DNA from: Halovibrio variabilis
Lineage (GTDB): Bacteria; Pseudomonadota; Gammaproteobacteria; Pseudomonadales; Halomonadaceae
NCBI RefSeq assembly: GCF_007991175.1
Contig: NZ_BJXV01000003.1
Coordinates: 62,001 to 126,000, forward strand
DNA length: 64,000 bases
Direction: 5' to 3'
This document shows, piece after piece, positions 3,020-17,400 of this stretch. Below the pieces are notes generated by a model that ran no database searches, was not told the origin of the DNA, and saw only the letters and a list, made by a program, of their open reading frames with translations. How positions within the stretch are numbered: the stretch's first letter is position 1; each line of letters opens with the position of its first letter. A program made the translations under genes and the position numbers.

Positions 3020-3988
3020 CTAAAACCAATGCTTGCGCCTGAAAAGCCAAATCAATAGCCCACCGATTCCCAGCATCACGCCCCAGACAAAAAAGTAGCC
3101 GTACTCATAGCGCAGTTCAGGCATATTGTCGAAATTCATGCCATAGATACCGGCAATAAAAGTCAGTGGTACAAAAATCGCGGTAATCACCGTGAGCACG
3201 CGCATGGTGATGTTTAACTGGTGGGAGGAAATGGAAATATAGCCGTCGACCAAGTCGCCGCAAATGTCGTAGTACATTTGGGTCAGGGTGTAGAGCCGTT
3301 CGAAGCGTTCGGCCACATTGTTAATCGCGTGCAGGGTTTCACTCTCATCCCGGGGCAGATGTTCATAGTCGTAGGCCGTCAGCTCTTGCGTGATCCCTTT
3401 GTGGTAACTAAAGATACGCCGCATTTTGACCAATCGAGAACGATAGCTAATGATCTTGCGCATCAAAACATCATTACCGTTTTCTAACAGTTCATCCTCA
3501 AGATCGCTTAGCTCCGTTTCAAACTCGAGCAGGCTGTCGATATAGAAGCCCGCCGATATATACATCACCCGCAGCGCCACGTGCTCCGGAGAATGCGCTA
3601 AAAGCGTTTTGCCATGGTCATTGAACAGGCGCTCAATACTTAACGCCTCACCGGGATGAAGGGTCACCAGAAACCTTGTACCGATAAAGAAGCACAGCTG
3701 CTGAGGCTGATAGTTCAGCGTTGCATCGAATGACGAAATGCCGCGATAAATAATCAGCGTGTGGTTATCAAACTCTTCTATTTTCGGCGGATGACGCTCT
3801 TTTTGTGCGTCCTGAATCGCCATCGAATGAAACTCAAACGCCTCTAAAATAGTCCGCTCGCGCTCCTGAGTCTCGCCCTGCATATCGATCCAGATATGGC
3901 TATCGGGTGTGGCTTGCCACATTGCGAACAGGTCTTCATCACCTTCGTAAACCGCCCCGTCAGGAGTGGTCAAAAGCGTCCTAATCAT
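3020..3988 (-). CDS. corA: CorA family divalent cation transporter
   Basis: A 323-residue CorA-type magnesium/cobalt (or zinc) channel. A long soluble N-terminal region ends in two C-terminal membrane helices. The first ends in Y-G-M-N-F-D-N-M-P-E-L, containing the G-M-N ion-selectivity signature and the M-P-E-L loop; the chain then ends with the second helix and basic R-R-K-H-W-F. The ATG at 3988 has AAGGA upstream and overlaps the end of the preceding diguanylate cyclase by eight bases, so the two are probably coupled in translation. An earlier in-frame start at 4024 lies deeper in the cyclase gene and lacks a ribosome-binding site. CorA versus ZntB specificity is not certain from sequence, but the M-P-E-L loop favours CorA. 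Confidence 0.92.
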   Translation of the reverse strand: MIRTLLTTPDGAVYEGDEDLFAMWQATPDSHIWIDMQGETQERERTILEAFEFHSMAIQDAQKERHPPKIEEFDNHTLIIYRGISSFDATLNYQPQQLCFFIGTRFLVTLHPGEALSIERLFNDHGKTLLAHSPEHVALRVMYISAGFYIDSLLEFETELSDLEDELLENGNDVLMRKIISYRSRLVKMRRIFSYHKGITQELTAYDYEHLPRDESETLHAINNVAERFERLYTLTQMYYDICGDLVDGYISISSHQLNITMRVLTVITAIFVPLTFIAGIYGMNFDNMPELRYEYGYFFVWGVMLGIGGLLIWLFRRKHWF

Positions 3989-5453
3989 ATTCGTCCTTGA
4001 GATTGAGTGCGTCGGGAGCCGCACTATCGGCAGAGCGCGCCATGCTTACCTGGCCCTTGCCAGAATGTTTAGCTTCGTACATGGCCACATCAGCGCGTTT
4101 AAGTAGCTCATGAGCCGTTTCTCCAGCGGTAGGTGAATAAAGTGCGGCGCCTATGCTGGTGCTTACCCTCAGGCTTATCTCGCCCATTGGGACCGGTTTT
4201 TCTGTCACCTCGACCATGGACTGAGCCAACGGCTGAACAGCGTCGGGGGCAACGCCTTCTAATAGAACCACGAACTCATCCCCCGCCCAGCGGGCAACAT
4301 AATCGGTTTCGCGAACGGCCGTTTTCAAACGCTTCGCTATCTCGCGCAGCAGCGCATCGCCGGTTGTATGGCCGTGCTGATCATTAACCGCTTTAAACCC
4401 GTCTAAATCCATAAACAACACGGCCAGGTGTTTTTGCAAGCGGCGGGCACGTGCCATTGCTTCAGCCAGGCGTTCATTCAAGGCGCGCCGGTTGGGCAGC
4501 TGGGTCAACACATCTTCTCGGGCTTCCTGGTCGCGTAGCCGCTCCAACTGCTGACGCTCGGTAATATCGTGTATAAACAAACTGCGCCGCTGTTGGCCAT
4601 CGATGCGCAACGATTTTATGCGAATTTCTACCGGCAGTTGACTACCGTCTCGGCATTGAGCGGTGGCGATCAGCGGCGCCTGTTCGTCGCTGGCGGGTAG
4701 CCCTTGCGGAAACAGCAGCTGGGTGATCGGCCGTGCCTGCGCTTGTTTGCGTGGCCAACCAAACATCATCTCCGCGGCGCGGTTCCAATCCAAAACCACG
4801 TCGTGTGTATCCAGGCTAATATAAGCGTCGTAGGCTGACTCGATGACCAGGTTGAGCTCCCGAGTACGCCGCTCTATCTGGTTTTCCATACTTTGATGAA
4901 ACGCTTTCAGCGCCTGCTGCGATGCCTGCTTGGTCTTCTTCTCAACAATCAGCCGCTCACGCAGGTGAATTTCATCAGTCACGATAGCGGCCAGGTCTTG
5001 CATAACCGCAAACTCATCTTCTTGTAGCCTGCGCGGCTTGGTGTCGATGGCGCACAGCGCCCCCAGCGGCAGGCCTTGGGAGGAGAGCAGCGGAAAACCA
5101 ACGTAAAAGCGAATACCGTCCTGAACGGTCACGAACGGGTTGTTAGCAAAACGTTCGTCCGCCGTGGCGTCTTCGACGATAAGAGGCACGGCTTGCATAA
5201 TGGTATGCGCGCAGAAGGCCACATCTCGCGACGTCTCGCGCGTTTCGACACCGACGCTCGACTTAAACCACTGCCGATCAGCGTCAATCAACGATACCGT
5301 TGCAATGGGCACATTGAGCAGCTTCGTCACCAGCCGGGTAACACGGTCAAAGACTGGCTCGTGGGGGGTATCAAGCAGCTCAAGCTCGCGGAGAACTGCC
5401 AAGCGCGCATCTTCATTAGGTGTTATAGGATAAGACATTGTAGTGTCACCCAT
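3981..5453 (-). CDS. GAF-PAS sensor diguanylate cyclase
   Basis: A 490-residue cytoplasmic signalling protein. Order: GAF domain (about residues 25-165, with D-V-A-F-C-A-H-T and the loop G-F-P-L-L-S near 119), a short coiled linker (170-200), a PAS domain (about 200-300, ending D-I-T-E-R) and a C-terminal GGDEF domain (about 315-480). The active-site loop is A-G-D-E-F (390-394), a variant compatible with cyclic di-GMP synthesis, and R-E-T-D (381-384) five residues before it matches the inhibitory I-site R-x-x-D. No EAL domain and no membrane segment are seen. ATGs at 5453 and 5438 are both possible; neither has a strong ribosome-binding site. The gene overlaps corA downstream by eight bases. 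Confidence 0.9.
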   Translation of the reverse strand: MGDTTMSYPITPNEDARLAVLRELELLDTPHEPVFDRVTRLVTKLLNVPIATVSLIDADRQWFKSSVGVETRETSRDVAFCAHTIMQAVPLIVEDATADERFANNPFVTVQDGIRFYVGFPLLSSQGLPLGALCAIDTKPRRLQEDEFAVMQDLAAIVTDEIHLRERLIVEKKTKQASQQALKAFHQSMENQIERRTRELNLVIESAYDAYISLDTHDVVLDWNRAAEMMFGWPRKQAQARPITQLLFPQGLPASDEQAPLIATAQCRDGSQLPVEIRIKSLRIDGQQRRSLFIHDITERQQLERLRDQEAREDVLTQLPNRRALNERLAEAMARARRLQKHLAVLFMDLDGFKAVNDQHGHTTGDALLREIAKRLKTAVRETDYVARWAGDEFVVLLEGVAPDAVQPLAQSMVEVTEKPVPMGEISLRVSTSIGAALYSPTAGETAHELLKRADVAMYEAKHSGKGQVSMARSADSAAPDALNLKDEYD

Positions 5454-7290: not shown

Positions 7291-7983
7291 ATGATTCATA
7301 ACGAAGCCAAGGAACACACCGCTGGTCGGCTAAACGAACTATTTTCTGACCCCTATCGCGCGTTTGACAACGATACGGATGAGCGTCAGCTGCATATTCG
7401 CATTATGCTGCATATGCTACTTGCCCGCCCGATGAAACGCGGGCAAATAACACTGCGGGTTATCCACGGCTGGGAAAATGGCGGCTATGAGCCGAAAGAC
7501 CTTCAGCACGTCGATTACCCGCTTAGCAACGTGGCCGATTTCAAACGCGTGGTCAGAGATTTTGAATATGCCTCTAAACACAATACCCCTTTACCCACCG
7601 ACACCACCGCCGTTCTTGACGATCCGCTAACCGAGGCGATTGCAAACGCCGAAGCCCTGGGCCAGCACCTTCCCCCTGACATTCGCAGTACGCCCGCACA
7701 CTGGCAGACCTTTGATGGCGGCCTGGCACTCTACACACTGTTTAAAATGTATCACCGCTTGGTGTATAGCGAAGACGACGCCTATCGGTGCACGCAGTGC
7801 CTCACATCGCACGGCCTGCGTGAAATACACGAGTTCCATCTGGAAGAGGGAGAGTTCGCGCTGCTGGTACCCCCTGCCTCACGCTTTATGGAGGAGTCTT
7901 CTCTGCTTGTATTGCATGAAAGCCAACTTGACCCGATCGAGCAGTTGCTCGAAGAAAGCCTGCCGTTATTCGATAATTTCTAA
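7291..7983 (+). CDS. Hypothetical protein with a CxxC motif
   Basis: A 230-residue soluble protein that I do not recognise. The ATG has GGGAC seven bases upstream. No signal peptide or membrane segment is visible. The first half contains a regular-looking block (H-I-R-I-M-L-H-M-L-L-A-R-P-M-K-R-G around residues 37-52), the middle contains Y-R-C-T-Q-C-L-T-S-H-G (about 164-174), where C-x-x-C plus nearby histidines could bind a metal, and the C-terminus is acidic (E-E-S-L-P-L-F-D-N-F). It is convergent with the Alpha-E gene, separated by only 20 bases, and has its own upstream region with a possible promoter. Composition and codon use look like the neighbours, so it is probably a native lineage-specific gene. 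Confidence 0.75.
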   Translation: MIHNEAKEHTAGRLNELFSDPYRAFDNDTDERQLHIRIMLHMLLARPMKRGQITLRVIHGWENGGYEPKDLQHVDYPLSNVADFKRVVRDFEYASKHNTPLPTDTTAVLDDPLTEAIANAEALGQHLPPDIRSTPAHWQTFDGGLALYTLFKMYHRLVYSEDDAYRCTQCLTSHGLREIHEFHLEEGEFALLVPPASRFMEESSLLVLHESQLDPIEQLLEESLPLFDNF

Positions 7984-8003: not shown

Positions 8004-9011
8004 CTAGTCGTTATCGTTGTCACCCGCGTGGTGTTGACTCTGGCTTTGGTGCGGCGTCGTCGCCATCGGCACGGCGTCGTCATTAACGAAATAGGTCGCG
8101 CTCAGCGTAGCGTGGATGGCGGCAAAGCCAATCTGCAGCTCGTCGATAAACGCATGCAGCTTACTGGGCGAATGAGCTAGCGCTTGAATATCGGCGTCCA
8201 CCACGTCGGCACGCACCAGGGAAACCGTCGCTGCCGGGCGATCCTGGCGAGGCAAGAGCGTTAGTTCGTAGCCAAGTGTTTCCAGGCTGCAGGCAATCGA
8301 GCGCGGCAGGTTGGGGTCTTGTAACAAAAAGCGCAGCACATCCGGCCCGCGCACGCGCAGACGCACCTGCTGGCGATACATCTGATAAGCGGTGAGCGAC
8401 TTTAGCACGCTCATCCACTGCAGATTCTCAAACGGCAGCAGCTCTTCTGGGTTTTGCGGCAACAGGCTGGCGGAGCGCACATCGACAATCCGCGTGGTCA
8501 TATCGGCCCGTTCCAACTGACGCCCCAGCTCAATAAAAGTACGCGCCAGACCATGGCTTAAGGTGCCTTCAATGAGCCCGGTCAGGGTTTGGCAGCCACG
8601 AATGACGTTTTTAAGGAAGTTATCCCGCCGCCGCGGACTAACGCCGTTTTCTACGTGATCCGCCACGTTTAAATATAGCTGGTTAACCTCTTCCCAAATC
8701 TCCCGCGGCACCACGTCTCGGGTGGTTCTTAAATTTTCCCGGGCGCTCGCCAGCGCTGAAATAATCGAAATATCATTGTCGGTATCAGCGCATAAAAAGT
8801 GCACCACGCTACGTTCATCAAAGTCTGCATGGCGGGCGGTGAAGGCTTCCCGGCTGCCGGTCATTTCAATCAGTGGCGCCCAGCCCAGCGGCAGGCGCCC
8901 TGGCAAATCGAGCATAAGGTGACTATTGACGCTCAACAGGCGCGCGGTATCTTCTGCGCGCTCAATATAACGCGCCATCCAATAGAGGTTTTCTGCAACG
9001 CGTGACAGCAT
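8004..9011 (-). CDS. Alpha-E domain protein (DUF403/COG2307)
   Basis: A 335-residue protein beginning M-L-S-R-V-A-E-N-L-Y-W-M-A-R-Y-I-E-R-A-E-D, the standard opening of the Alpha-E family: helical proteins, rich in conserved acidic residues, that accompany circularly permuted ATP-grasp enzymes. The ATG at 9011 has AAGGAG upstream and lies four bases after the stop of the ATP-grasp gene, so the two form an operon. The family's biochemistry is not established; comparative genomics has linked it to ATP-grasp amidoligases and transglutaminases in a predicted peptide synthesis or modification pathway. The C-terminal tail (H-Q-S-Q-S-Q-H-H-A-G-D-N-D-N-D) is low complexity and likely disordered. Confidence 0.93.
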   Translation of the reverse strand: MLSRVAENLYWMARYIERAEDTARLLSVNSHLMLDLPGRLPLGWAPLIEMTGSREAFTARHADFDERSVVHFLCADTDNDISIISALASARENLRTTRDVVPREIWEEVNQLYLNVADHVENGVSPRRRDNFLKNVIRGCQTLTGLIEGTLSHGLARTFIELGRQLERADMTTRIVDVRSASLLPQNPEELLPFENLQWMSVLKSLTAYQMYRQQVRLRVRGPDVLRFLLQDPNLPRSIACSLETLGYELTLLPRQDRPAATVSLVRADVVDADIQALAHSPSKLHAFIDELQIGFAAIHATLSATYFVNDDAVPMATTPHQSQSQHHAGDNDND

Positions 9012-9015
9012 GGCG

Positions 9016-10497
9016 TTAGGCTCCTTTCGCCGCGGCCGCGGCCGCGTTATCGTCGGTTTCCACAATCCAGGTATCTTTACTGCCGCCGCCTTGGGAAGAG
9101 TTGACCACCAGCGAGCCCTCGATTAGCGCCACCCGGGTAAGGCCACCGGTGGTGACGTGGATTTCAGGTCCTGAGAGAATAAACGGGCGTAAATCCACGT
9201 GGCGCGGCTGCGCTAAACCATCGAAAAGGGTCGGCGTAGTCGATAGTGCCAGGGTAGGCTGAGCCATGTAGTTACGCGGGTTCGCCTTGATCAAACGGGC
9301 AAACTCTTCACGGGTTTCTTTCGTTGAGCGTGGGCCAATCAGCATACCGTAGCCCCCCGACTCGTTGGCCGGCTTCACCACCAATTCATCCAGGTGATCG
9401 AGTACATAGCGGCGGTCGTCCTCGAACATGCACAAATAGCTCGGCACGTTGGGCAGCAGCGGCTCCTGATCGAGATAGTAGCGAATCAGCGCGGGCACAA
9501 ACGCATAGACGACTTTGTCGTCAGCGACGCCAGCGCCGGGGGCATTGGCCAGCGCCACTTTGCCCGCCCGCCAAGCGCGCATTAGCCCTGCCACCCCTAG
9601 CATTGATGTCGGATTAAAGGCTTCCGGGTCTAAAAACTCGTCGTCCACACGGCGATAAATCACATCGACCCGGCGTCGTCCCTCCACGGTGCGCATATAT
9701 ACTACGTCATCGTCGTCGACGACTAGGTCGCTGCCCTGCACCAGTTCCACGCCCATTTGCTGGGCAAGGTAAGCGTGCTCAAAGTAGGCAGAGTTATAAA
9801 TACCCGGGGTCAGCACCACCACCTGGGGCTCATCCCCAGGCCGCGGCGACATCGCCGCCAGCATGTCGTAAAGATTGGCCACATAGTCATCCACGGGCAG
9901 AATTTTGCCTGAAGCAAACAGCTCCGGCAGCACCCGTTTGGTGACGTTGCGGTTTTCAAGCATGTAAGAGACGCCGGAAGGAATACGCAGGTTATCTTCC
10001 AGCACATACAGCGTACCCTCGCCATCGCGGACTAAGTCCGAGCCACACACATGCGCCCACACGCCGTGGGGAGGATTAATGCCGACACACTGGGGGCGAA
10101 AATTGACCGATTGCGCCAGCACTTCCGCAGGCAGTACTTTGTCCTTAATCACTTTTTGGTCGTGGTAAAGATCATCGATAAATAAATTCAACGCCTGCAC
10201 ACGCTGCTTAAGACCCGCCTCTGTTTTGCGCCACTCACTGGCGGGAATAATCCGCGGCACAATGTCAAAGGGCCAAGCCCGGTCGATCATGGCTCCTTCA
10301 GAATAAACGGTAAAGGTAATCCCCATGGTACGAATAGCGATCTCAGCGGCGGTTTTTCGCTCCGCCAACTCTTCGGCGCTAAACCTTGCCAACATGTTGC
10401 ACAGTTCACCCGCTGACGCGCGTGGCTGACCGGGTGCGGCCATCAGCTCATCGTAATAGTCACGACACGCATAGTTATTCCAATTCACTTGGCTCAT
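9016..10497 (-). CDS. Circularly permuted type 2 ATP-grasp protein (COG2308), stand-alone
   Basis: A 493-residue enzyme-like protein. Motifs expected for the family are present: E-D-N-L-R-I-P-S-G-V (167-176), L-T-P-G-I-Y-N-S-A-Y-F-E-H-A-Y-L-A (229-245), Y-R-R-V-D-D-E-F-L-D-P (281-291), the ATP-lobe motif K-P-A-N-E-S-G-G-Y-G-M-L (375-386) and Q-G-G-G-S-K-D-T-W near the C-terminus. It is therefore probably active as an ATP-dependent carboxylate-amine ligase; substrate unknown. It ends in an alanine run encoded by repeated GCGGCC. It is the first gene of a two-gene unit with the Alpha-E protein and divergent from the transglutaminase arm. Its intact ATP lobe contrasts with the fused copy at 14108-16531. 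Confidence 0.93.
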   Translation of the reverse strand: MSQVNWNNYACRDYYDELMAAPGQPRASAGELCNMLARFSAEELAERKTAAEIAIRTMGITFTVYSEGAMIDRAWPFDIVPRIIPASEWRKTEAGLKQRVQALNLFIDDLYHDQKVIKDKVLPAEVLAQSVNFRPQCVGINPPHGVWAHVCGSDLVRDGEGTLYVLEDNLRIPSGVSYMLENRNVTKRVLPELFASGKILPVDDYVANLYDMLAAMSPRPGDEPQVVVLTPGIYNSAYFEHAYLAQQMGVELVQGSDLVVDDDDVVYMRTVEGRRRVDVIYRRVDDEFLDPEAFNPTSMLGVAGLMRAWRAGKVALANAPGAGVADDKVVYAFVPALIRYYLDQEPLLPNVPSYLCMFEDDRRYVLDHLDELVVKPANESGGYGMLIGPRSTKETREEFARLIKANPRNYMAQPTLALSTTPTLFDGLAQPRHVDLRPFILSGPEIHVTTGGLTRVALIEGSLVVNSSQGGGSKDTWIVETDDNAAAAAAKGA

Positions 10498-10861
10498 GGG
10501 CGCTCTCCTGGCGCTGGGGTGGACGCGGCAATGTCCTTAATGCTCAGTGTAGGTCTGCCGCGTGCAAAACATTCCAATAATTCAGAGCAATATACGTACC
10601 ATCTTTTGCGTTATTTCAACGCTTGCTTACCCAAACGTTACTTATCGGAAATTTTGAGCACTCAATAGCGTCTCAGTGCACTGTTTTAGCGCACCCAAGA
10701 GGCTTCAATTTGGTGCACTAGCGCATTTCCACTCTTGTTAAACGCCTTAGGCCAGATACCAGCTGCAAAAAAGTAAAAGTGGAACGATACTTGCGGAACA
10801 TTCGGTTATTCCCTAACGCAACCGACTATCCGGTTGATAACGGTTCCTTTGAGGGTGGCCC
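10498..10861. promoter_or_regulatory. Divergent promoter region between the two arms of the ATP-grasp/transglutaminase locus
   Basis: A 364-bp gap between two divergent operons, so promoters for both should lie here. The sequence is more AT-rich than the genes. A small hairpin AACCG-ACTATC-CGGTT lies at about 10820-10835, shortly before GAGGGTGG, the ribosome-binding site of the plus-strand gene. I could not assign convincing -35/-10 pairs and saw no small gene. Confidence 0.5.
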
Positions 10862-13800
10862 ATGACCATTCGCGTTGCCTTGTATCATCGTACGACTTAC
10901 CACTTTGACCGCCCGGTGCTTCTTTCGCCCCATGTGATTCGGCTACGCCCGGCGCCTCACTGCCGCACGCATATTGAGGCGTACTCGCTCAAACTCTCCG
11001 GCGATGACCACTTTATCAATTGGCAACAGGATCCCTTCGGCAACTTCAATGCCCGCGTGGTGTTCCCCGAACCACGTAAAGAGTTAACCATTGCCGTCGA
11101 GCTCATTGCCCCGATGACGGTAATCAATCCGTTTGATTTCTTTTTAGATGAGATTGCCCAAACGATCCCGTTTGCCTACCCAGCGTCATTGCGCCAAGAA
11201 TTAAGCCCTTACCTGGAAATAACCGAAGCCGGGCCGCGGCTGATGGCGTGGCTTGAAACCGTCCCGCGCACCCCCACCACGACCGTCGATTTTTTGGTTG
11301 CGCTGAACCAGCGCCTGCAGGACGACATCGGCTACTTGGTACGTTTAGAACCCGGCGTGCAAAGCTGTGAAGAAACGCTGACGCTTGCCAGCGGCTCCTG
11401 CCGCGACAGCGCCTGGCTGCTGGTGCAGATTTTTCGTCATCTGGGGCTCGCCGCACGCTTTGTGTCGGGCTACCTGATTCAGCTCAAGTCGGATGTCAAA
11501 GCGCTGGATGGCCCCAGCGGTAGCGAGGAGGATTTCACCGACCTACATGCCTGGACCGAAGTATTCCTGCCTGGGGCCGGTTGGGTAGGCCTGGACCCGA
11601 CCTCGGGCCTGTTCGCGGGCGAAGGCCATATTCCGTTAGCCGCCACCCCCACCATCGGCAGTGCAGCGGCGATCACCGGGTCTTCAGAAAAGTGTGAGGT
11701 CAGCTTTGATGTCACCATGGAAGTCGAGCGCATTCACGAAGACCCGCGAATCACCAAGCCGTATAGCGATGAGCAGTGGCAGCGCATCGGCGCGCTAGGC
11801 GACCAGGTTGACGCTGAGCTTAACCAGCAGGACGTACGCCTGACCATGGGTGGCGAGCCGACCTTTGTGTCGGTGGATGACATGGAAAGCCCGCAGTGGA
11901 ATACCCAAGCGCTAGGCGAACACAAGCGCGAATGCGCCGAGGTGCTGCTGGCTCGCCTTCAGGCGGCTTTCGCCCCCGGCAGTGTGATTCAGCAGCAGCA
12001 AGGGAAAAGGTACCCCGGCGAACCGCTACCGCGCTGGGCGTTGGCCTGCTACTGGCGTAAAGACGGCGCGCCGCTATGGCGGAACCCACAGTGGTTAGCC
12101 TTTATGCCGGACGCGCCCGAGGTAGCCGCGGACGACGTAACCGCTCAGCGCTTTACCACCGCGCTAAGCGAGCGTTTGAGCGTGGCCGAGCGCCACTGGC
12201 ACTCAGCCTATGAAGATAGCGCTTATTATCGTTGGCAAGAGCAATCGCTGCCGATCAACGTTGACCCACGCAACGCCACTGTCAACGACGGTGCTGAACG
12301 TCAGCGGCTAGCACGGCTATTGCAGCAGGGCCTGGACGCCGTGGTCGGCTATGCACTGCCCCTGCGCCATTCGCTTAGCCAGGCCCACCGCTGGGAAACT
12401 TGCCGCTGGCCGCTCAAGCGCGAGCATCTTTTTTTAGTGCCCGGCGATTCGCCCATAGGGCTGCGCCTGCCACTCTCCGCCTTGCCGTGGGCCGACCCGG
12501 ATCAAGCACCGACGGAAAGTGACCACCAGAACGGCATTATCCATACCAGCCTATGCGTGGAGCCTCGCGATGGCCGTTTGCATATTTTCCTGCCGCCGCT
12601 GACCCACCTGGAACACTATTTTGATCTGATCAATAGCGTGGAAGAATGCGCCTGCGAGCTGGCTTGCCCGGTCGTCATTGAAGGCTACGCACCGCCCCAG
12701 GATTCGCGCTTGGAAAAATTGATGGTGACGCCCGACCCCGGTGTGATCACTGTCAATATGATGCCGGCAGCGAGTTGGCAAACCCTGGTGGCGCAGACCG
12801 AACGCCTCTATGCCGATGCGTGGGCGTCGCGCCTGGGCACCGAGAAATTTATGCTTGATGGGCGCCATACCGGCACCGGCGGCGGCCACCAGATCACCCT
12901 GGGTGGCATCACCCCTGACGACTCGCCGTTTTTACGCCGCCCGGATCTGCTCGCCAGCATAGTGACTTACTGGCAGCACCATCCGAGCCTGTCATACCTG
13001 TTTGCAGGCTTATTTACTGGCCCTGCCAGCCAGGCCCCGAGGATGGATGAAACCCGCCACGAGGCACTTTACGAGCTGGAAATCGCCCTCCAGCAAATGC
13101 CTGCAGGCGACCTGAATCAGCCTTGGCTAGTGGATCAGCTGCTACGCCCCTTGCTCACCGATTTAACCGGCAACAGCCAACGCGCCGAGCTGTGTATCGA
13201 CAAACTCTACCCACCGGATAGCGGCGATAGGCAGCTAGGCCTGTTAGCGCTACGCGGCTTTGAAATGCCGCCGCATGCCCGCATGGGGCTGATGCAAATG
13301 CTGCTGGTCCGCGCCCTGGTGGCACGCTGCTGGAAAACGCCTTACCGGGCCAAACCAGTGCGGTGGGGCAGCGCCTTGCAGGATCGCTGGATGCTGCCCC
13401 ATTACCTGTGGAGTGACCTTGGCGATGTGCTCGACGATTTACGCTGCCATGGCTTCGATTTTGACCTGGCGTGGTTTGCGCCCTTCCTGGCGTTTCGCTT
13501 TCCGCTACACGGTCGCCTGCACACTCCCATGCTGGATATCGAGCTGCGCCAAGCCATCGAACCCTGGCATGTCGCGGGTGACGAGGCCGGCGCTGGCGGC
13601 ACTGGCCGCTACGTCGACTCCTCAGTGGAGCGCCTGGAAGTCAACGTCAGCGGCATGAGCGGTGACCGTTACGTGGTGACCTGCAACGGTCGCCGGGTAC
13701 CACTTTCCGCAACGGGCAGAAACGGTGAAGCGGTGGCCGGGGTGCGCTACCGTGCCTGGCAGCCGCCCTTGGCGCTGCATTCGGCGCCGCATTCGCAAAT

Positions 13801-14056
13801 TCCCATTCACGCACCGCTGGTGTTTGACGTGGTCGACACCTGGAACCAGCGCTCCGTCGCGGGCTGTACTTACCACGTGGCGCACCCCACTGGCCGCCAC
13901 TTTGATACCTTTCCGGTCAACGCCTTTGAAGCCGAAGCGCGCCGACTAGGCCGCTTTAGTGACAGCGGCCATCGCCATGGCCATCAGGTCCCCAAGCTGG
14001 AATCCCCCAGCCTGGAGCTACCGCAGACCCTCGACCTGCGCTGGACGCCAAGCTAA
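10862..14056 (+). CDS. Large transglutaminase family protein with C-terminal DUF2126
   Basis: A 1064-residue protein. Residues 1-300 are a transglutaminase-like cysteine peptidase domain: an N-terminal beta region, then the core with nucleophile Cys180 in G-S-C-R-D-S-A-W, His229 in D-L-H-A-W-T-E-V-F and Asp245 in G-L-D-P-T-S-G, a complete Cys-His-Asp triad. Residues from about 320 to the end are DUF2126, opening L-T-M-G-G-E-P-T-F-V-S. No signal peptide is seen, so it should act in the cytoplasm. In the predicted amidoligase pathway such proteins would hydrolyse or transfer isopeptide bonds made by the ATP-grasp partner; this is inference from co-occurrence. Length is normal for the family. 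It leads the plus-strand arm, 51 bases before the fused ATP-grasp/Alpha-E gene. Confidence 0.93.
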   Translation: MTIRVALYHRTTYHFDRPVLLSPHVIRLRPAPHCRTHIEAYSLKLSGDDHFINWQQDPFGNFNARVVFPEPRKELTIAVELIAPMTVINPFDFFLDEIAQTIPFAYPASLRQELSPYLEITEAGPRLMAWLETVPRTPTTTVDFLVALNQRLQDDIGYLVRLEPGVQSCEETLTLASGSCRDSAWLLVQIFRHLGLAARFVSGYLIQLKSDVKALDGPSGSEEDFTDLHAWTEVFLPGAGWVGLDPTSGLFAGEGHIPLAATPTIGSAAAITGSSEKCEVSFDVTMEVERIHEDPRITKPYSDEQWQRIGALGDQVDAELNQQDVRLTMGGEPTFVSVDDMESPQWNTQALGEHKRECAEVLLARLQAAFAPGSVIQQQQGKRYPGEPLPRWALACYWRKDGAPLWRNPQWLAFMPDAPEVAADDVTAQRFTTALSERLSVAERHWHSAYEDSAYYRWQEQSLPINVDPRNATVNDGAERQRLARLLQQGLDAVVGYALPLRHSLSQAHRWETCRWPLKREHLFLVPGDSPIGLRLPLSALPWADPDQAPTESDHQNGIIHTSLCVEPRDGRLHIFLPPLTHLEHYFDLINSVEECACELACPVVIEGYAPPQDSRLEKLMVTPDPGVITVNMMPAASWQTLVAQTERLYADAWASRLGTEKFMLDGRHTGTGGGHQITLGGITPDDSPFLRRPDLLASIVTYWQHHPSLSYLFAGLFTGPASQAPRMDETRHEALYELEIALQQMPAGDLNQPWLVDQLLRPLLTDLTGNSQRAELCIDKLYPPDSGDRQLGLLALRGFEMPPHARMGLMQMLLVRALVARCWKTPYRAKPVRWGSALQDRWMLPHYLWSDLGDVLDDLRCHGFDFDLAWFAPFLAFRFPLHGRLHTPMLDIELRQAIEPWHVAGDEAGAGGTGRYVDSSVERLEVNVSGMSGDRYVVTCNGRRVPLSATGRNGEAVAGVRYRAWQPPLALHSAPHSQIPIHAPLVFDVVDTWNQRSVAGCTYHVAHPTGRHFDTFPVNAFEAEARRLGRFSDSGHRHGHQVPKLESPSLELPQTLDLRWTPS

Positions 14057-14107
14057 TGCTTTCCTATTAGCTAGCGGTGCAGGATAATCAGCGGCCTACT
14101 TCTCAGG

Positions 14108-16531
14108 ATGACCAGGACAATGACGGCCCCTGTCTCTACCTCGCTTCTCGCGCCTGTTAAACATGGGCTCGTTGAGGATTACTTGAATCAGCTAGGCAAG
14201 GGACAGCCCGGCACGTTTGACGCCATGCTCGATGGTCAGGGGCAGCTGCGCCCCGGTTGGCAGAGCTTACTCGGCTGCTTGGAGGCCCTGGGTCCGGAAG
14301 GCCGCTATCAACAGCATGAAGAGATCCAGCGACTGCTAGCCGAAAACGGCGTGATTTTCAATCGGCACGACGACACCCAGGGGCGTTCGTGGCGGCTTGA
14401 CCCGCTGCCCTGGGTGATTGATGAAGCGCAGTGGCAAACATTAGTGGCGGGCTTAGTCCAGCGCAGCCGGCTACTCAGCGCCCTCTATGACGACCTTTAC
14501 GGGCCCAAAACGCTGTTTGCGGCGGGGCTATTACCGGCTCAGGCACTGCTTGCATCGCCGCACTTACTATTACCCTGCCATCAGTCACTGCCCGATCAGC
14601 GTTCCGCGATCAACTTCCATGCCGTGGATGTCATTCAGGACACTCAAGGCCAGTGGCGGGTAATCGCAGACCGGTTGCAGGCGCCGTCAGGCACGGGGTT
14701 TGCGCTTGAAAACCGCATCCTGATGGCCCGCGCGCTGCCCGACATGTACCGCAATGCGCCATTGAAGCGGTTAGCCGGTTTTCTTGACCTGCACCACCGC
14801 ATGCTCATCGCAATGGCCTATTACCATCGTGATAATCCAACGCTTATTTTGCTGACCCCAGGGCCGTCCAGCCCGCGCTATTTTGAGCACGCCTATTTGG
14901 CCAACTATCTCAATATTGCGCTGGTGGAAGGTCAGGATTTAGTCGTCCGCGATAGCCAAGTATGGCTGCGCACGTTAGGCGGCTTAAAGCCAGTGGATGT
15001 GGTATTGCGCCACTGCGATGACGCCTATTGCGACCCGCTGGAGCTGCGCGGCGATTCGCCGCTAGGCGTGCCTGGCATGCTGCAGACCATGCGCGCAGGC
15101 AAGGTGGCCCTGTCTAACGCTTTAGGGGTGGGCATTTTGGAAGACCCCGTGCTTGCCGACTACCTGCCTGCGCTATGCGAGCACCTGCTGGGTGAGCCGT
15201 TACGGCTAGCCAATGCGGATACCTCGACGGTGCCCGCCACGGCGCCGATGTTTGATAGCCACCTGCAGCGTTTAGAGCCCGCCTCCTTGAACCTACGCTG
15301 CTTTGTCACCCGCACACCGGACAGCGCCAGTGGAAAGCGCAGCGCCGACAATGACTATCAAGTCATGCCCGGCGGTTTAGCCTGGGTCGGCAAGCCTGGG
15401 TCGCCGTCGTTAAGCAGCACCGTCGTTAAGGATGTGTGGGTCACGGCCGCCTCGCCCCAGCCCCATGTTAGCCAGCTACGCCAGGCCCGCGGCCCGGTGG
15501 TCGCCACCCGCGACGGCACCGACCTGCCCAGCCGGGTGGCCGAAAGCCTGTTTTGGCTAGGTCGCTACGGCGAACGCTTGGATACCCGCGCGCGACTATT
15601 GCGTGAAGCGCTGCTGAGGTTGATGGAGTATGACCAGGATGACATTGCCGACCAATTGCTGGATGAGCTGCTGCTGGCGTTGGATATCACCACGCTCAAC
15701 GAGGACGCCGCGCAGCGTGCGCAGGCACCGCGGATTGGGTTTGAGCTAAAGCGCGCCGCGCTGCTGGCGCAATTCGATGACGTCGACCCGCAGGCGCTGC
15801 AGCCACTGTTTGCCCAGCTCATGCGCAGTGCGCGCAGCGTGCGCGATCATTTGGGCGACGACTCCTGGCGCGTCGTGCACCAGCTAGGCGAGCAAATAGC
15901 CACGTTTAATACCCATTTAGGCACCAGTGCGGCACGCCGCGCCTGCGAAGGGCTATCGGCCCAGTTAGCGGCCTTCTTCGGGCTGTGCAATGAAACCATG
16001 CCGCACCACTTCGGCTGGCGATTTATGGATATCGGCCGTTTTTTGGATCGCGTACTGGGGCTACTCAAGCTGCTCAAGCTGACTCTCCATGCCCCGCACT
16101 CACCGGGGCTTGCGCTATGGGAAGTAGTACTCGCCACTACCGATAACTTTACCGCCTACCGGCGGCGCTATCGCAGCGAGCTCCACCCCGCGGCGATTCT
16201 GGACCTCTTGCTGTTTGACGAAACGAATCCCCGCTCGGTGGGCTATATGCTCAAGCGCATTGAGCGGCAAATGGACCAACTGCCCGGCAGTTCATCGCCT
16301 TACCGTAATGCAGAACGACGGCTGTTGATTCAGGCCAATGCGGCGCTGCACTTGGCCGATATTGATCGCTTGAGCCATTTAGCCGACACCTCAGAGGCGC
16401 AAGCAGCGCTAGCGCAACTGCTGGATGCCTTGATAGCCCCCTTGAGCGCGCTTTCTGAGGCGATAAGTCAGAGCCATTTCAGCCACGTGGAGCGGCCACG
16501 CCAGCTTGTCAGCATGGAGCCCGACGCATGA
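14108..16531 (+). CDS. Circularly permuted ATP-grasp / Alpha-E fusion protein with a shortened ATP lobe
   Basis: An 807-residue fusion. Residues 1-450 match the stand-alone ATP-grasp protein: A-L-E-N-R-I (199-204), L-T-P-G-P-S-S-P-R-Y-F-E-H-A-Y-L-A (249-265) and R-H-C-D-D-A-Y-C-D-P (301-310) correspond. Residues from about 471 on are Alpha-E, opening L-P-S-R-V-A-E-S-L-F-W-L-G-R-Y. Around residue 370 (DNA about 15215), however, roughly 65 residues present in the stand-alone protein are missing, including K-P-A-x-x-x-G-G-x-G. The later Q-G-G-G-S-K-D motif is also changed. ATP binding is therefore doubtful. The Alpha-E part looks complete. An alternative ATG at 14120 fits the ribosome-binding site better. 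The stop overlaps the next transglutaminase gene by four bases. Confidence 0.92.
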   Translation: MTRTMTAPVSTSLLAPVKHGLVEDYLNQLGKGQPGTFDAMLDGQGQLRPGWQSLLGCLEALGPEGRYQQHEEIQRLLAENGVIFNRHDDTQGRSWRLDPLPWVIDEAQWQTLVAGLVQRSRLLSALYDDLYGPKTLFAAGLLPAQALLASPHLLLPCHQSLPDQRSAINFHAVDVIQDTQGQWRVIADRLQAPSGTGFALENRILMARALPDMYRNAPLKRLAGFLDLHHRMLIAMAYYHRDNPTLILLTPGPSSPRYFEHAYLANYLNIALVEGQDLVVRDSQVWLRTLGGLKPVDVVLRHCDDAYCDPLELRGDSPLGVPGMLQTMRAGKVALSNALGVGILEDPVLADYLPALCEHLLGEPLRLANADTSTVPATAPMFDSHLQRLEPASLNLRCFVTRTPDSASGKRSADNDYQVMPGGLAWVGKPGSPSLSSTVVKDVWVTAASPQPHVSQLRQARGPVVATRDGTDLPSRVAESLFWLGRYGERLDTRARLLREALLRLMEYDQDDIADQLLDELLLALDITTLNEDAAQRAQAPRIGFELKRAALLAQFDDVDPQALQPLFAQLMRSARSVRDHLGDDSWRVVHQLGEQIATFNTHLGTSAARRACEGLSAQLAAFFGLCNETMPHHFGWRFMDIGRFLDRVLGLLKLLKLTLHAPHSPGLALWEVVLATTDNFTAYRRRYRSELHPAAILDLLLFDETNPRSVGYMLKRIERQMDQLPGSSSPYRNAERRLLIQANAALHLADIDRLSHLADTSEAQAALAQLLDALIAPLSALSEAISQSHFSHVERPRQLVSMEPDA

Positions 16532-17400
16532 ACTACACGCTGCGCCATACCACCCGCTACCACTACAGCGCCCCCGTGACCCTGTGCCATAGCGAAGCCC
16601 GGGTGCTACCGCGTGAAACGCCCTATCAGCAGTGCGGCGCCTCGGCATTACAGATTAGCCCGGCGCCCCAGGTGCAGAGCGAACGCCGCGACGTGTTTGG
16701 CAATCGGGTGCTTTATTTTGCACTCGAAGAGGTCCACCAGAGCCTGGACGTCACCGTGGTCACGCCGCTTTATACCCAGCCGTTAGCCGCGCTACCGAGC
16801 ACCTCGCCGAGCTGGGAAAACGTGGCTCAGCAGCTCTGCCAGGCAGGCAGCTTTGACCTTCAGCTCTACCGCCTGGACTCGCCGTTTATCCGCCGAAACG
16901 ATGCATTGGCCACCTTTGCCCACCGCTGTTTTACCCCAGGCAGGCCCATCGTCGAGGCAGCGCTAGCGCTTAATGAACTGATTTATCAAACCTTTGAATA
17001 CGACGCCAGCTTCACCACCCTAGCGACGCCGCTAAGCGAGGTGCTCGCCCAACGGCGCGGCGTCTGCCAAGACTTCGCCCATCTGGCGATTGGCGCACTG
17101 CGTTCGGTAGGGCTTGCCGCCCGCTATGTTAGCGGCTATTTAGAAACCCAGCCGCCACCGGGCCAGCCACGGCTTATAGGCGCAGATGCTTCCCATGCGT
17201 GGCTGGCTACCTGGATTCCCGACTGGGGCTGGCTAGCCCTCGACCCCACTAACGGCACCGTGGCCGGTGAGCAACACCCGGTGCTGGCGTGGGGACGCGA
17301 CTACGCGGATGTGGCCCCGCTCAAAGGGGTGATGAATGGCGGCGGCGAACATCGTTTAGAGGTAGAGGTCGACGTCAGGCCTTCTCATAGGCGGCCTTAA
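16528..17400 (+). CDS. Small transglutaminase family protein
   Basis: A 290-residue transglutaminase-like protein with an N-terminal beta-sheet extension (M-N-Y-T-L-R-H-T-T-R-Y-H-Y) and a catalytic core at about 150-245. The triad is visible: Cys180 in R-G-V-C-Q-D-F-A-H, His223 in S-H-A-W and Asp239 in L-D-P-T-N-G-T. No signal peptide is seen. It starts in an ATGA overlap with the ATP-grasp/Alpha-E fusion, so its synthesis is coupled to it, completing the three-gene arm. Its 3' end overlaps the convergent DUF3581 gene by 26 bases. Biological substrate unknown; by context it should cleave or transfer the product of the ATP-grasp ligase. Confidence 0.93.
   Translation: MNYTLRHTTRYHYSAPVTLCHSEARVLPRETPYQQCGASALQISPAPQVQSERRDVFGNRVLYFALEEVHQSLDVTVVTPLYTQPLAALPSTSPSWENVAQQLCQAGSFDLQLYRLDSPFIRRNDALATFAHRCFTPGRPIVEAALALNELIYQTFEYDASFTTLATPLSEVLAQRRGVCQDFAHLAIGALRSVGLAARYVSGYLETQPPPGQPRLIGADASHAWLATWIPDWGWLALDPTNGTVAGEQHPVLAWGRDYADVAPLKGVMNGGGEHRLEVEVDVRPSHRRP

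Follow-up and report, generated by a model that had tools for sequence, protein, structure and literature searches.

ATP-grasp ligases encoded together with Alpha-E proteins and transglutaminase-like enzymes have been predicted in print to form amidoligase systems. The closest described examples are the Anbu operons, in one of which, from Y. bercovieri, the ATP-grasp releases phosphate from ATP (PMC6376114), and the transglutaminase-DUF2126 proteins, whose architecture Iyer, Burroughs and Aravind placed in 2008 in the carboxylate-amine ligase superfamily (PMC2588565; here and below, published statements are given as they stand in excerpts of the cited papers). Our literature searches turned up no product of this amidoligase system. 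Here we describe a five-gene locus in the 3.73-Mb, 48-contig genome of Halovibrio variabilis, located within a window of 64,000 nucleotides (positions 62001-126000 of contig C3). The locus is a member of this known, widespread and uncharacterised system and hence no new kind, and we lean slightly towards reading it as a nitrogen-limitation-induced pathway of amide (peptide-like) conjugation and cleavage, made up of a ligase and a cysteine amidase.

The genes form two divergent arms around a shared control region of exactly 364 bp (10498-10861), and the first-pass annotation had placed all five frames and this gap correctly; each frame has strong Pfam matches. On the minus strand, the gene of a stand-alone, circularly permuted ATP-grasp ligase (9016-10497; PF14403, CP_ATPgrasp_2, E 6.9e-168) adjoins that of an Alpha-E protein (8004-9011; PF04168, 3.6e-87). 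The Alpha-E start had been put at a TTG at 9065; an alignment of 26 proteins, all sharing the residues MLS, moves it to a conserved ATG at 9011, four bases past the ATP-grasp stop, giving a protein of 335 residues. The plus arm begins with a large protein of 1,064 codons matched by Bact_transglu_N, Transglut_core and DUF2126 (E 0), comprising a transglutaminase-like domain (residues 1-262; 10862-11647) and a DUF2126 ligase-type region whose C-terminal part spans residues 551-1064 (12512-14056). Next come a fused protein (14108-16531), which joins a pseudo-ATP-grasp covering positions 1-273 of the 374 in the CP_ATPgrasp_2 profile to an Alpha-E domain, and a small transglutaminase-like cysteine enzyme (16528-17400; Bact_transglu_N, Transglut_core), whose start overlaps the fusion stop and whose end overlaps a convergent DUF3581 gene by 26 bases. 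A circularly permuted ATP-grasp gene next to an Alpha-E gene, linked to a transglutaminase-like protein with a Cys-His-Asp triad, is the gene content of the systems already predicted in print, in agreement with the earlier assignment to a predicted amidoligase pathway.

For the comparison of residues we used proteins within set length ranges, cut-off copies excluded: 92 transglutaminase-DUF2126, 63 fused and 40 stand-alone proteins, those of the window included, with both ATP-grasps numbered as in the window's stand-alone protein. This protein contains VVKPANESGGYG, the K-P-A...G-G motif that the first-pass annotation had pointed out, and its D154, E167, D168, N169, K328 and K375 are identical in 40 of 40 stand-alone ATP-grasps. 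The Asp, the Glu-x-Asn and the lysines, which we take from glutathionylspermidine synthetase to be the metal/ATP site, are all present, so that the proposal of one stand-alone pair with its catalytic residues kept agrees with these six positions. The protein is not faster-evolving: its nonsynonymous divergence (dN) from each of three close relatives is 0.02, much the same as between those relatives. The AlphaFold2 model of its Alpha-E partner is all-helical and confident (predicted local distance difference test, pLDDT, 89.7) but yields no clue to the fold, because Foldseek found no solved relative and the best PDB match reached only E 0.97.

The fused ATP-grasp lacks the same residues. N169 is kept in none of the 63 fusions and E167 in one (L095). 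Outside Vreelandella, N169 is replaced by Arg in 48 of 55 fusions and K328 by Pro in 45, K375 is kept in 43, and D168, R169 and Q171 are present in 53, 48 and 48; all eight Vreelandella fusions have lost the K375 loop. Fused ATP-grasps do not conserve the glycine loop. The fused pair had been described as apparently degraded, which fits its ATP-grasp half, now without a catalytic site, but not its Alpha-E half, which is normal; the degeneracy is confined to the former. Nor is the loss local: since Glu and Asn are absent family-wide in the fusions, we are dealing with an old, conserved pseudo-ligase. Decay only in Vreelandella was ruled out, the site also being lost in fusions outside the genus. 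The fused ATP-grasp is, judged by its residues, a family-wide pseudo-enzyme that is kept with an Alpha-E domain and a transglutaminase. On the H. variabilis branch the fusion is mildly faster.

In the large protein (DUF2126 profile PF09899, 1198.6 bits), 205 columns are strictly invariant in 91 homologues, and the window's protein deviates at 12 of them, all after residue 550 (E630T, N676H, H677Q, T722A, R759Q, T772S, H773Q, G790R, R791Q, E796A, E907D and P974S); no other homologue departs alone at more than four columns invariant in the rest. P974S adjoins a four-residue insertion and is alignment-dependent, its column being a gap in the others in another alignment; at the remaining 11 positions the family residue is kept in 30 of 30 loci (L004-L033). 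The family-invariant residues, our candidate for the DUF2126 active site, are therefore not fully preserved in the window, and a linker of about 55 residues in the DUF2126 region is lacking as well. In the transglutaminase part, none of the 64 strictly invariant residues is changed. The terminal branch of the window's protein measures 0.175 over residues 556-1040 (mean 0.011 and maximum 0.032 in 27 congeners) and 0.205 in the middle part (0.020 and 0.082); at 0.054 in the transglutaminase part it exceeds the congeners' maximum of 0.043 (mean 0.012), so that half is also somewhat faster. The pairwise ratio of nonsynonymous to synonymous divergence (dN/dS) of the C-terminal part is 0.06-0.13 versus 0.01-0.05 among relatives, and the frame of 1,064 codons is open, which indicates that selection is relaxed or changed, not absent. 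Together, these residue states suggest that the DUF2126 half, ligase-type by family, looks inactive in H. variabilis, and that of the three ligase domains (stand-alone ATP-grasp, fused ATP-grasp and DUF2126) one looks still catalytic.

Two earlier statements have to be revised here. The DUF2126 protein had been counted as a peptidase, whereas published work assigns its DUF2126 half to the carboxylate-amine ligase superfamily (PMC2588565). The system had also been called complete: all five genes are present, but completeness is doubtful because this ligase-type half has lost conserved residues in this genome. The model of the whole large protein is of moderate quality (pLDDT 73.9); in Foldseek it matches 3isr (E 4.6e-11) and then only weakly (E 0.04 and up) glutamine synthetase (probability 0.94, E 0.044), 1tt4, a predicted glutathione synthase (0.91, E 0.065), and gamma-glutamylmethylamide synthetase (0.75), besides transglutaminase-type proteins, the depupylase Dop (weak) and unrelated proteins at low probability.

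Both transglutaminase-fold enzymes keep their Cys/His/Asp triads, as had been noted: C180/H229/D245 in the large protein, without exception in 30 other loci, and, for the small enzyme, C180/H223/D239, kept in 53 of 53 aligned proteins, window included. The small enzyme is mildly faster on the H. variabilis branch. The locus is thus a variant in which, judged by residues, a single ligase domain of the three is a working one; it also encodes two Alpha-E domains and two transglutaminase-fold enzymes whose triads are intact, and the arm that carries the working ligase has a conserved promoter of nitrogen type.

That promoter lies in the control region, where the first-pass annotation had missed signals of nitrogen type. 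Scored against what we take to be the sigma54 consensus, a sigma54-like promoter, TGGTACGTATATTGCT (10586-10601, minus strand), has one mismatch and lies 88 bp ahead of the start of the ATP-grasp gene; scanning the 364 bp for sigma70 promoters found nothing. Between the arms are two NtrC-like sites on the plus strand with three mismatches each, the inverted repeat TGCACTGTTTTAGCGCA (10677-10693), where relatives are often nearer the consensus, and a second one ending in TTTGGTGCA (10701-10717), by eye like the half-sites before glnA. A further sigma54-like site, TGGAACGATACTTGCG (10780-10795, plus strand), precedes the plus arm and is retained in part of the genus only. The genome contains rpoN and, about 2 kb from glnA, a single ntrC match that exceeds the family cut-off. 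Upstream of glnA we recognised by eye a sigma54-like site and TTGGTGCA half-sites; TGGCATAATCTCTGCA, with TTTTGGTGCA and ATTGGTGCA half-sites, is read there.

We compared 27 congeneric control regions, the window's included, after dropping L004, L006, L008 and L019 from 30 relatives, these having no divergent ATP-grasp start in reach. All 27 carry, 87-126 bp before the ATP-grasp, a GG-N10-GC site on the minus strand that has two mismatches or fewer, its inner bases varying, although these are not 27 independent events because loci of one genus are related. The best sigma54-like site on either strand has at most two mismatches in 27 regions and at most one in 17 (shuffles, means of 2.3 and 0.2), and NtrC-like palindromes with at most two mismatches lie between the arms in 15, versus 0.2 in shuffles. 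The site before the plus arm is listed in 18 of the 27 regions; eight lack it, and in the one left an N falls inside. Before the same arm, GCTGCAAAA together with AACGATACT (window 10762-10791) does not vary in any of the 16 congeneric regions aligned, including those that have lost the sigma54-like bases.

Across phyla, with at most two mismatches counted as sigma54-like, such a site precedes 17 of 30 operon-first stand-alone ATP-grasps of proteobacteria (eight with at most one mismatch) versus 37 (six) of 685 other open reading frames (ORFs); the control ORFs were called mechanically and include spurious frames, start codons are estimates, phylum labels come from record titles (10 of 80 loci are unlabelled and left out of the proteobacterial counts), and the cases are not independent. 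The other seven operon-first ATP-grasps, non-proteobacterial or unlabelled, had none. Operon-first DUF2126 genes have the site in 13 of 38 proteobacterial cases (three with at most one mismatch) and in four of 22 others; six Pseudomonas DUF2126 loci share a near-identical one 38-39 bp before the estimated start. Genes internal to the cassette rarely have it (fusion 1/36, small transglutaminase 2/47, DUF2126 2/19, ATP-grasp 0/6), and operon-first fusions had it in none of 10 cases. NtrC-like sites precede 10 of 30 operon-first ATP-grasps and 11 of 38 operon-first DUF2126 genes versus 63 of 684 other ORFs. Sigma54-like sites are thus enriched before proteobacterial homologues of the minus-arm ligase gene.

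Published expression data on sister operons point in the same direction in part. The B. cenocepacia genes I35_5080-83 (DUF404/407, DUF403, transglutaminase-like and large transglutaminase-like, with no Anbu among them), which judged by name may be a DUF2126-type locus, belong to the NtrC and sigma54 regulon (PMC5491218). In P. putida, PP_2685 and PP_2688 are up on nitrate versus ammonium (PMC8050072), and limiting nitrogen raises PP2685-2687 (PMC3325844); one listed CP_ATPgrasp gene of Bradyrhizobium carries a predicted RpoN site (PMC13207237), and the domains of the locus are associated with urea metabolism in marine metagenomes (PMC3597751). Expression of Anbu-operon proteins was described as stable under various conditions, yet Anbu as up in nitrogen-limited P. 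putida (PMC5666114).

A number of observations weigh against a nitrogen-controlled conjugation pathway. All these expression data concern species other than H. variabilis. In P. putida, an rpoN mutation does not abolish the rise of PP_2686-2688 when nitrogen is limiting (14- to 20-fold in the mutant, 11- to 15-fold in the wild type), PP_2685 is hardly up in the wild type (1.12) and the urt genes behaved alike (PMC7801951), and reporter expression from a PP_2685 promoter fragment was nitrogen-agnostic (PMC8050072). With Anbu as bait, no specific interactions were reported among the Y. bercovieri operon proteins (PMC6376114). In our data, the pattern TGGYACGN4TTGC occurs at two places in the genome, the minus-arm site and one inside a long frame, and is not enriched, because its reversed control occurs 10 times. 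At the three mismatches that each NtrC-like site of the window carries, 30 matches are found in the window against 28 expected; the exact core GCACCN5GGTGC occurs at 13 genome places, nine of them, by eye, inside long frames and none beside a gene that we recognised as a nitrogen gene, and it was not used as support. The plus-arm sigma54-like site is missing in eight of 27 congeners, though the inner AACGATACT is kept. The fold link between DUF2126 and glutamine synthetase is weak (Foldseek E 0.04-0.7), and hhalign gave no significant match between the DUF2126 profile and the GlnA of the genome, aligning only GTGGGHQ with GSGMHVH.

Scanning genome contigs with the transglutaminase-DUF2126 profile gave at least 585 relatives among 592 pattern matches listed, so the family is widespread. 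The 80 relatives kept include, by record title, Gamma-, Beta-, Alpha- and Zetaproteobacteria, Bacteroidota, Verrucomicrobia, Planctomycetes, Nitrospirota, desulfobacterial lineages and Poribacteria. In 50 of these loci the sequence extends 7 kb or more to either side. The fusion is present in 34 of the 50, each time together with a small transglutaminase on the same stretch, the ATP-grasp/Alpha-E pair in 25 and Anbu in 14, and seven have none of these. The modules are shuffled, yet the five-gene set of the window is common and is also found in one direction (for example in L075). As the first-pass annotation had observed, no Anbu lies beside the H. variabilis locus, and none belongs to its operons; Anbu elsewhere in the genome was ruled out, since the only PF00227 match is HslV, directly upstream of an HslU frame. 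PF00227 has one match in each of 73 genomes of the genus, and outside the genus an Anbu-like match occurs in 10 of 44, all ten of them Alpha-E positive. The order-level relatives G075, G076, G088, G097 and G101 (L064-L066, L070 and L071) hold both an Anbu-like match and DUF2126; Anbu and DUF2126 are therefore not alternatives.

From gene content, residue states, the conserved sigma54-like site and the pattern of loss we infer the chemistry of the pathway, the roles of its partners and a nitrogen response in this species. NtrC and sigma54 would activate the ATP-grasp/Alpha-E arm and may do the same for the divergent one. The stand-alone ATP-grasp with its Alpha-E partner would activate a carboxylate with ATP and join it to an amine. 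The fused pseudo-ATP-grasp/Alpha-E protein, presumably non-catalytic, would serve in substrate binding or regulation and go with the small cysteine enzyme of transglutaminase fold; this enzyme and the large protein's transglutaminase domain may cut or exchange the amide. DUF2126 would be a further ligase in most relatives and inactive in H. variabilis, where only the transglutaminase half may still be needed.

The loss pattern also bears on another explanation, that the large plus-arm gene is decaying in this species and its DUF2126 changes are the early pseudogenisation of a dispensable domain. DUF2126 is matched in 51 of 117 related genomes (in 50 of them above the cut-off) and Alpha-E in 59, which by eye include all 51. 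In the genus (73 of the 117), Alpha-E is found in 42: both copies in 41, counting the fragments or broken copies of G046 and G047 (86% and 80% complete), and a single copy in G042 (66% complete), which leaves, by subtraction, 31 with none. A genus-wide repeat found DUF2126 in 47 of 82, one as a fragment below the cut-off. In the congeners G011, G045 and G069 the large protein stops after the transglutaminase half, at about 300 codons, and the ATP-grasp, both Alpha-E, the fusion and the small transglutaminase are retained. The first-pass annotation had named independent loss and gain of the five genes as an argument against one system. The outcome is mixed: both Alpha-E copies are present or absent together in nearly all of these genomes, but the DUF2126 half was lost separately in three. 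Decay would fit this separate loss, the 31 genomes without Alpha-E, the long DUF2126 branch and the mildly raised rates of the transglutaminase half, the fusion and the small transglutaminase; the open frame, the 64 unchanged transglutaminase residues and a C-terminal dN/dS well below 1, though above that of relatives, make us regard it as rather unlikely, if the most serious of the alternatives.

The remaining alternatives concern the chemistry. The transglutaminase-fold enzymes might cross-link (transpeptidate) as the productive step, the ligase supplying the donor; fold and triad are common to peptidases and transglutaminases, but the closest solved relative, 3isr (E 1.2e-11 to the small enzyme), is named a putative cysteine protease, and we find this doubtful. 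A protein or peptide tagging cycle, in which ligases attach a tag and transglutaminase-like enzymes trim it, was proposed in the first-pass annotation and in print for the Anbu operon. The domain content, the hypotheses quoted in PMC6376114, the origin of the DUF2126 family in a Pup-ligase superfamily search (PMC2588565) and the weak match to depupylase Dop speak for it; yet those who discovered the family found no Pup-like small conserved ORF next to it (PMC2588565), H. variabilis has no Anbu, and, with conserved residues missing from two of the three ligase domains, a balanced cycle of making and trimming is not evident, so we rate tagging as improbable. Equally improbable to us is that the fused ATP-grasp performs another chemistry without the canonical site: its Asp-Arg-x-Gln motif (D168, R169, Q171) and K375 are well kept outside Vreelandella, but the near-complete absence of Glu167 and Asn169, the Pro at 328, the unconserved glycine loop and the missing K375 loop of the Vreelandella fusions argue otherwise.

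Nitrogen-limitation-induced conjugation and cleavage is thus the reading that we retain. More tentatively, and at somewhat less than an even chance, we suggest that an unrecognised nitrogen-starvation pathway of amide conjugation, spread over many bacterial phyla, has as its core a conserved pair of ligases, namely an active ATP-grasp with Alpha-E and a pseudo-ATP-grasp-Alpha-E fusion tied to a transglutaminase-fold hydrolase, and that Vreelandella is reducing it to a single ligase by loss of DUF2126 or of its active site. Nitrogen-starvation control, if true, would point to the condition in which to seek the product, and H. variabilis offers, as a natural experiment, a hint as to which ligase domain may be enough and which dispensable. 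The conserved pseudo-ligase, the dead-looking DUF2126, the conserved sigma54-like site and the published nitrogen link, with some conflicting data, go beyond the first-pass annotation.

Other assignments were rejected. A defence system was ruled out, none of the five proteins being matched by PADLOC, and so was a viral cassette, 106 pattern stretches in viral contigs having yielded no relatives. NCBIfam gave no name to six proteins tested. Beside the Alpha-E gene lies an ORF of 230 residues (window 7291-7983, plus strand) with no Pfam or NCBIfam match, and nearby a GGDEF (diguanylate cyclase) protein with GAF and PAS domains (3981-5453, minus strand). Elsewhere in the genome, L045 (contig C8, 132424-135438) is a CRISPR-like array of 50 repeat copies with a TTTCTGAGCTGCCTGGGCGGCAGCGCAC core at a spacing of about 60 bases.

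Of solved structures, PDB 3n6x, called 'putative glutathionylspermidine synthase' by its depositor, matches the stand-alone ATP-grasp over 450 residues (E 7.8e-165); the name is putative, and we claim glutathione or spermidine activity neither for 3n6x nor for this ATP-grasp. With the transglutaminase-DUF2126 family of Rv2566 type the large protein, 54-82% identical to 33 aligned relatives, shares the architecture of an N-terminal transglutaminase-like and a C-terminal carboxylate-amine ligase-type domain (PMC2588565), and it differs in a ligase half with 12 invariant columns changed and the linker of about 55 residues gone. With the ATP-grasp/Alpha-E/transglutaminase/Anbu operon (Iyer et al. 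2009, via PMC6376114 and PMC5666114), for which nitrogen-linked expression is reported in P. putida, the locus shares adjacent ATP-grasp and Alpha-E genes and a transglutaminase-like enzyme; unlike that operon it is without Anbu and has a divergent arm composed of DUF2126, a pseudo-ATP-grasp/Alpha-E fusion and a transglutaminase of its own.

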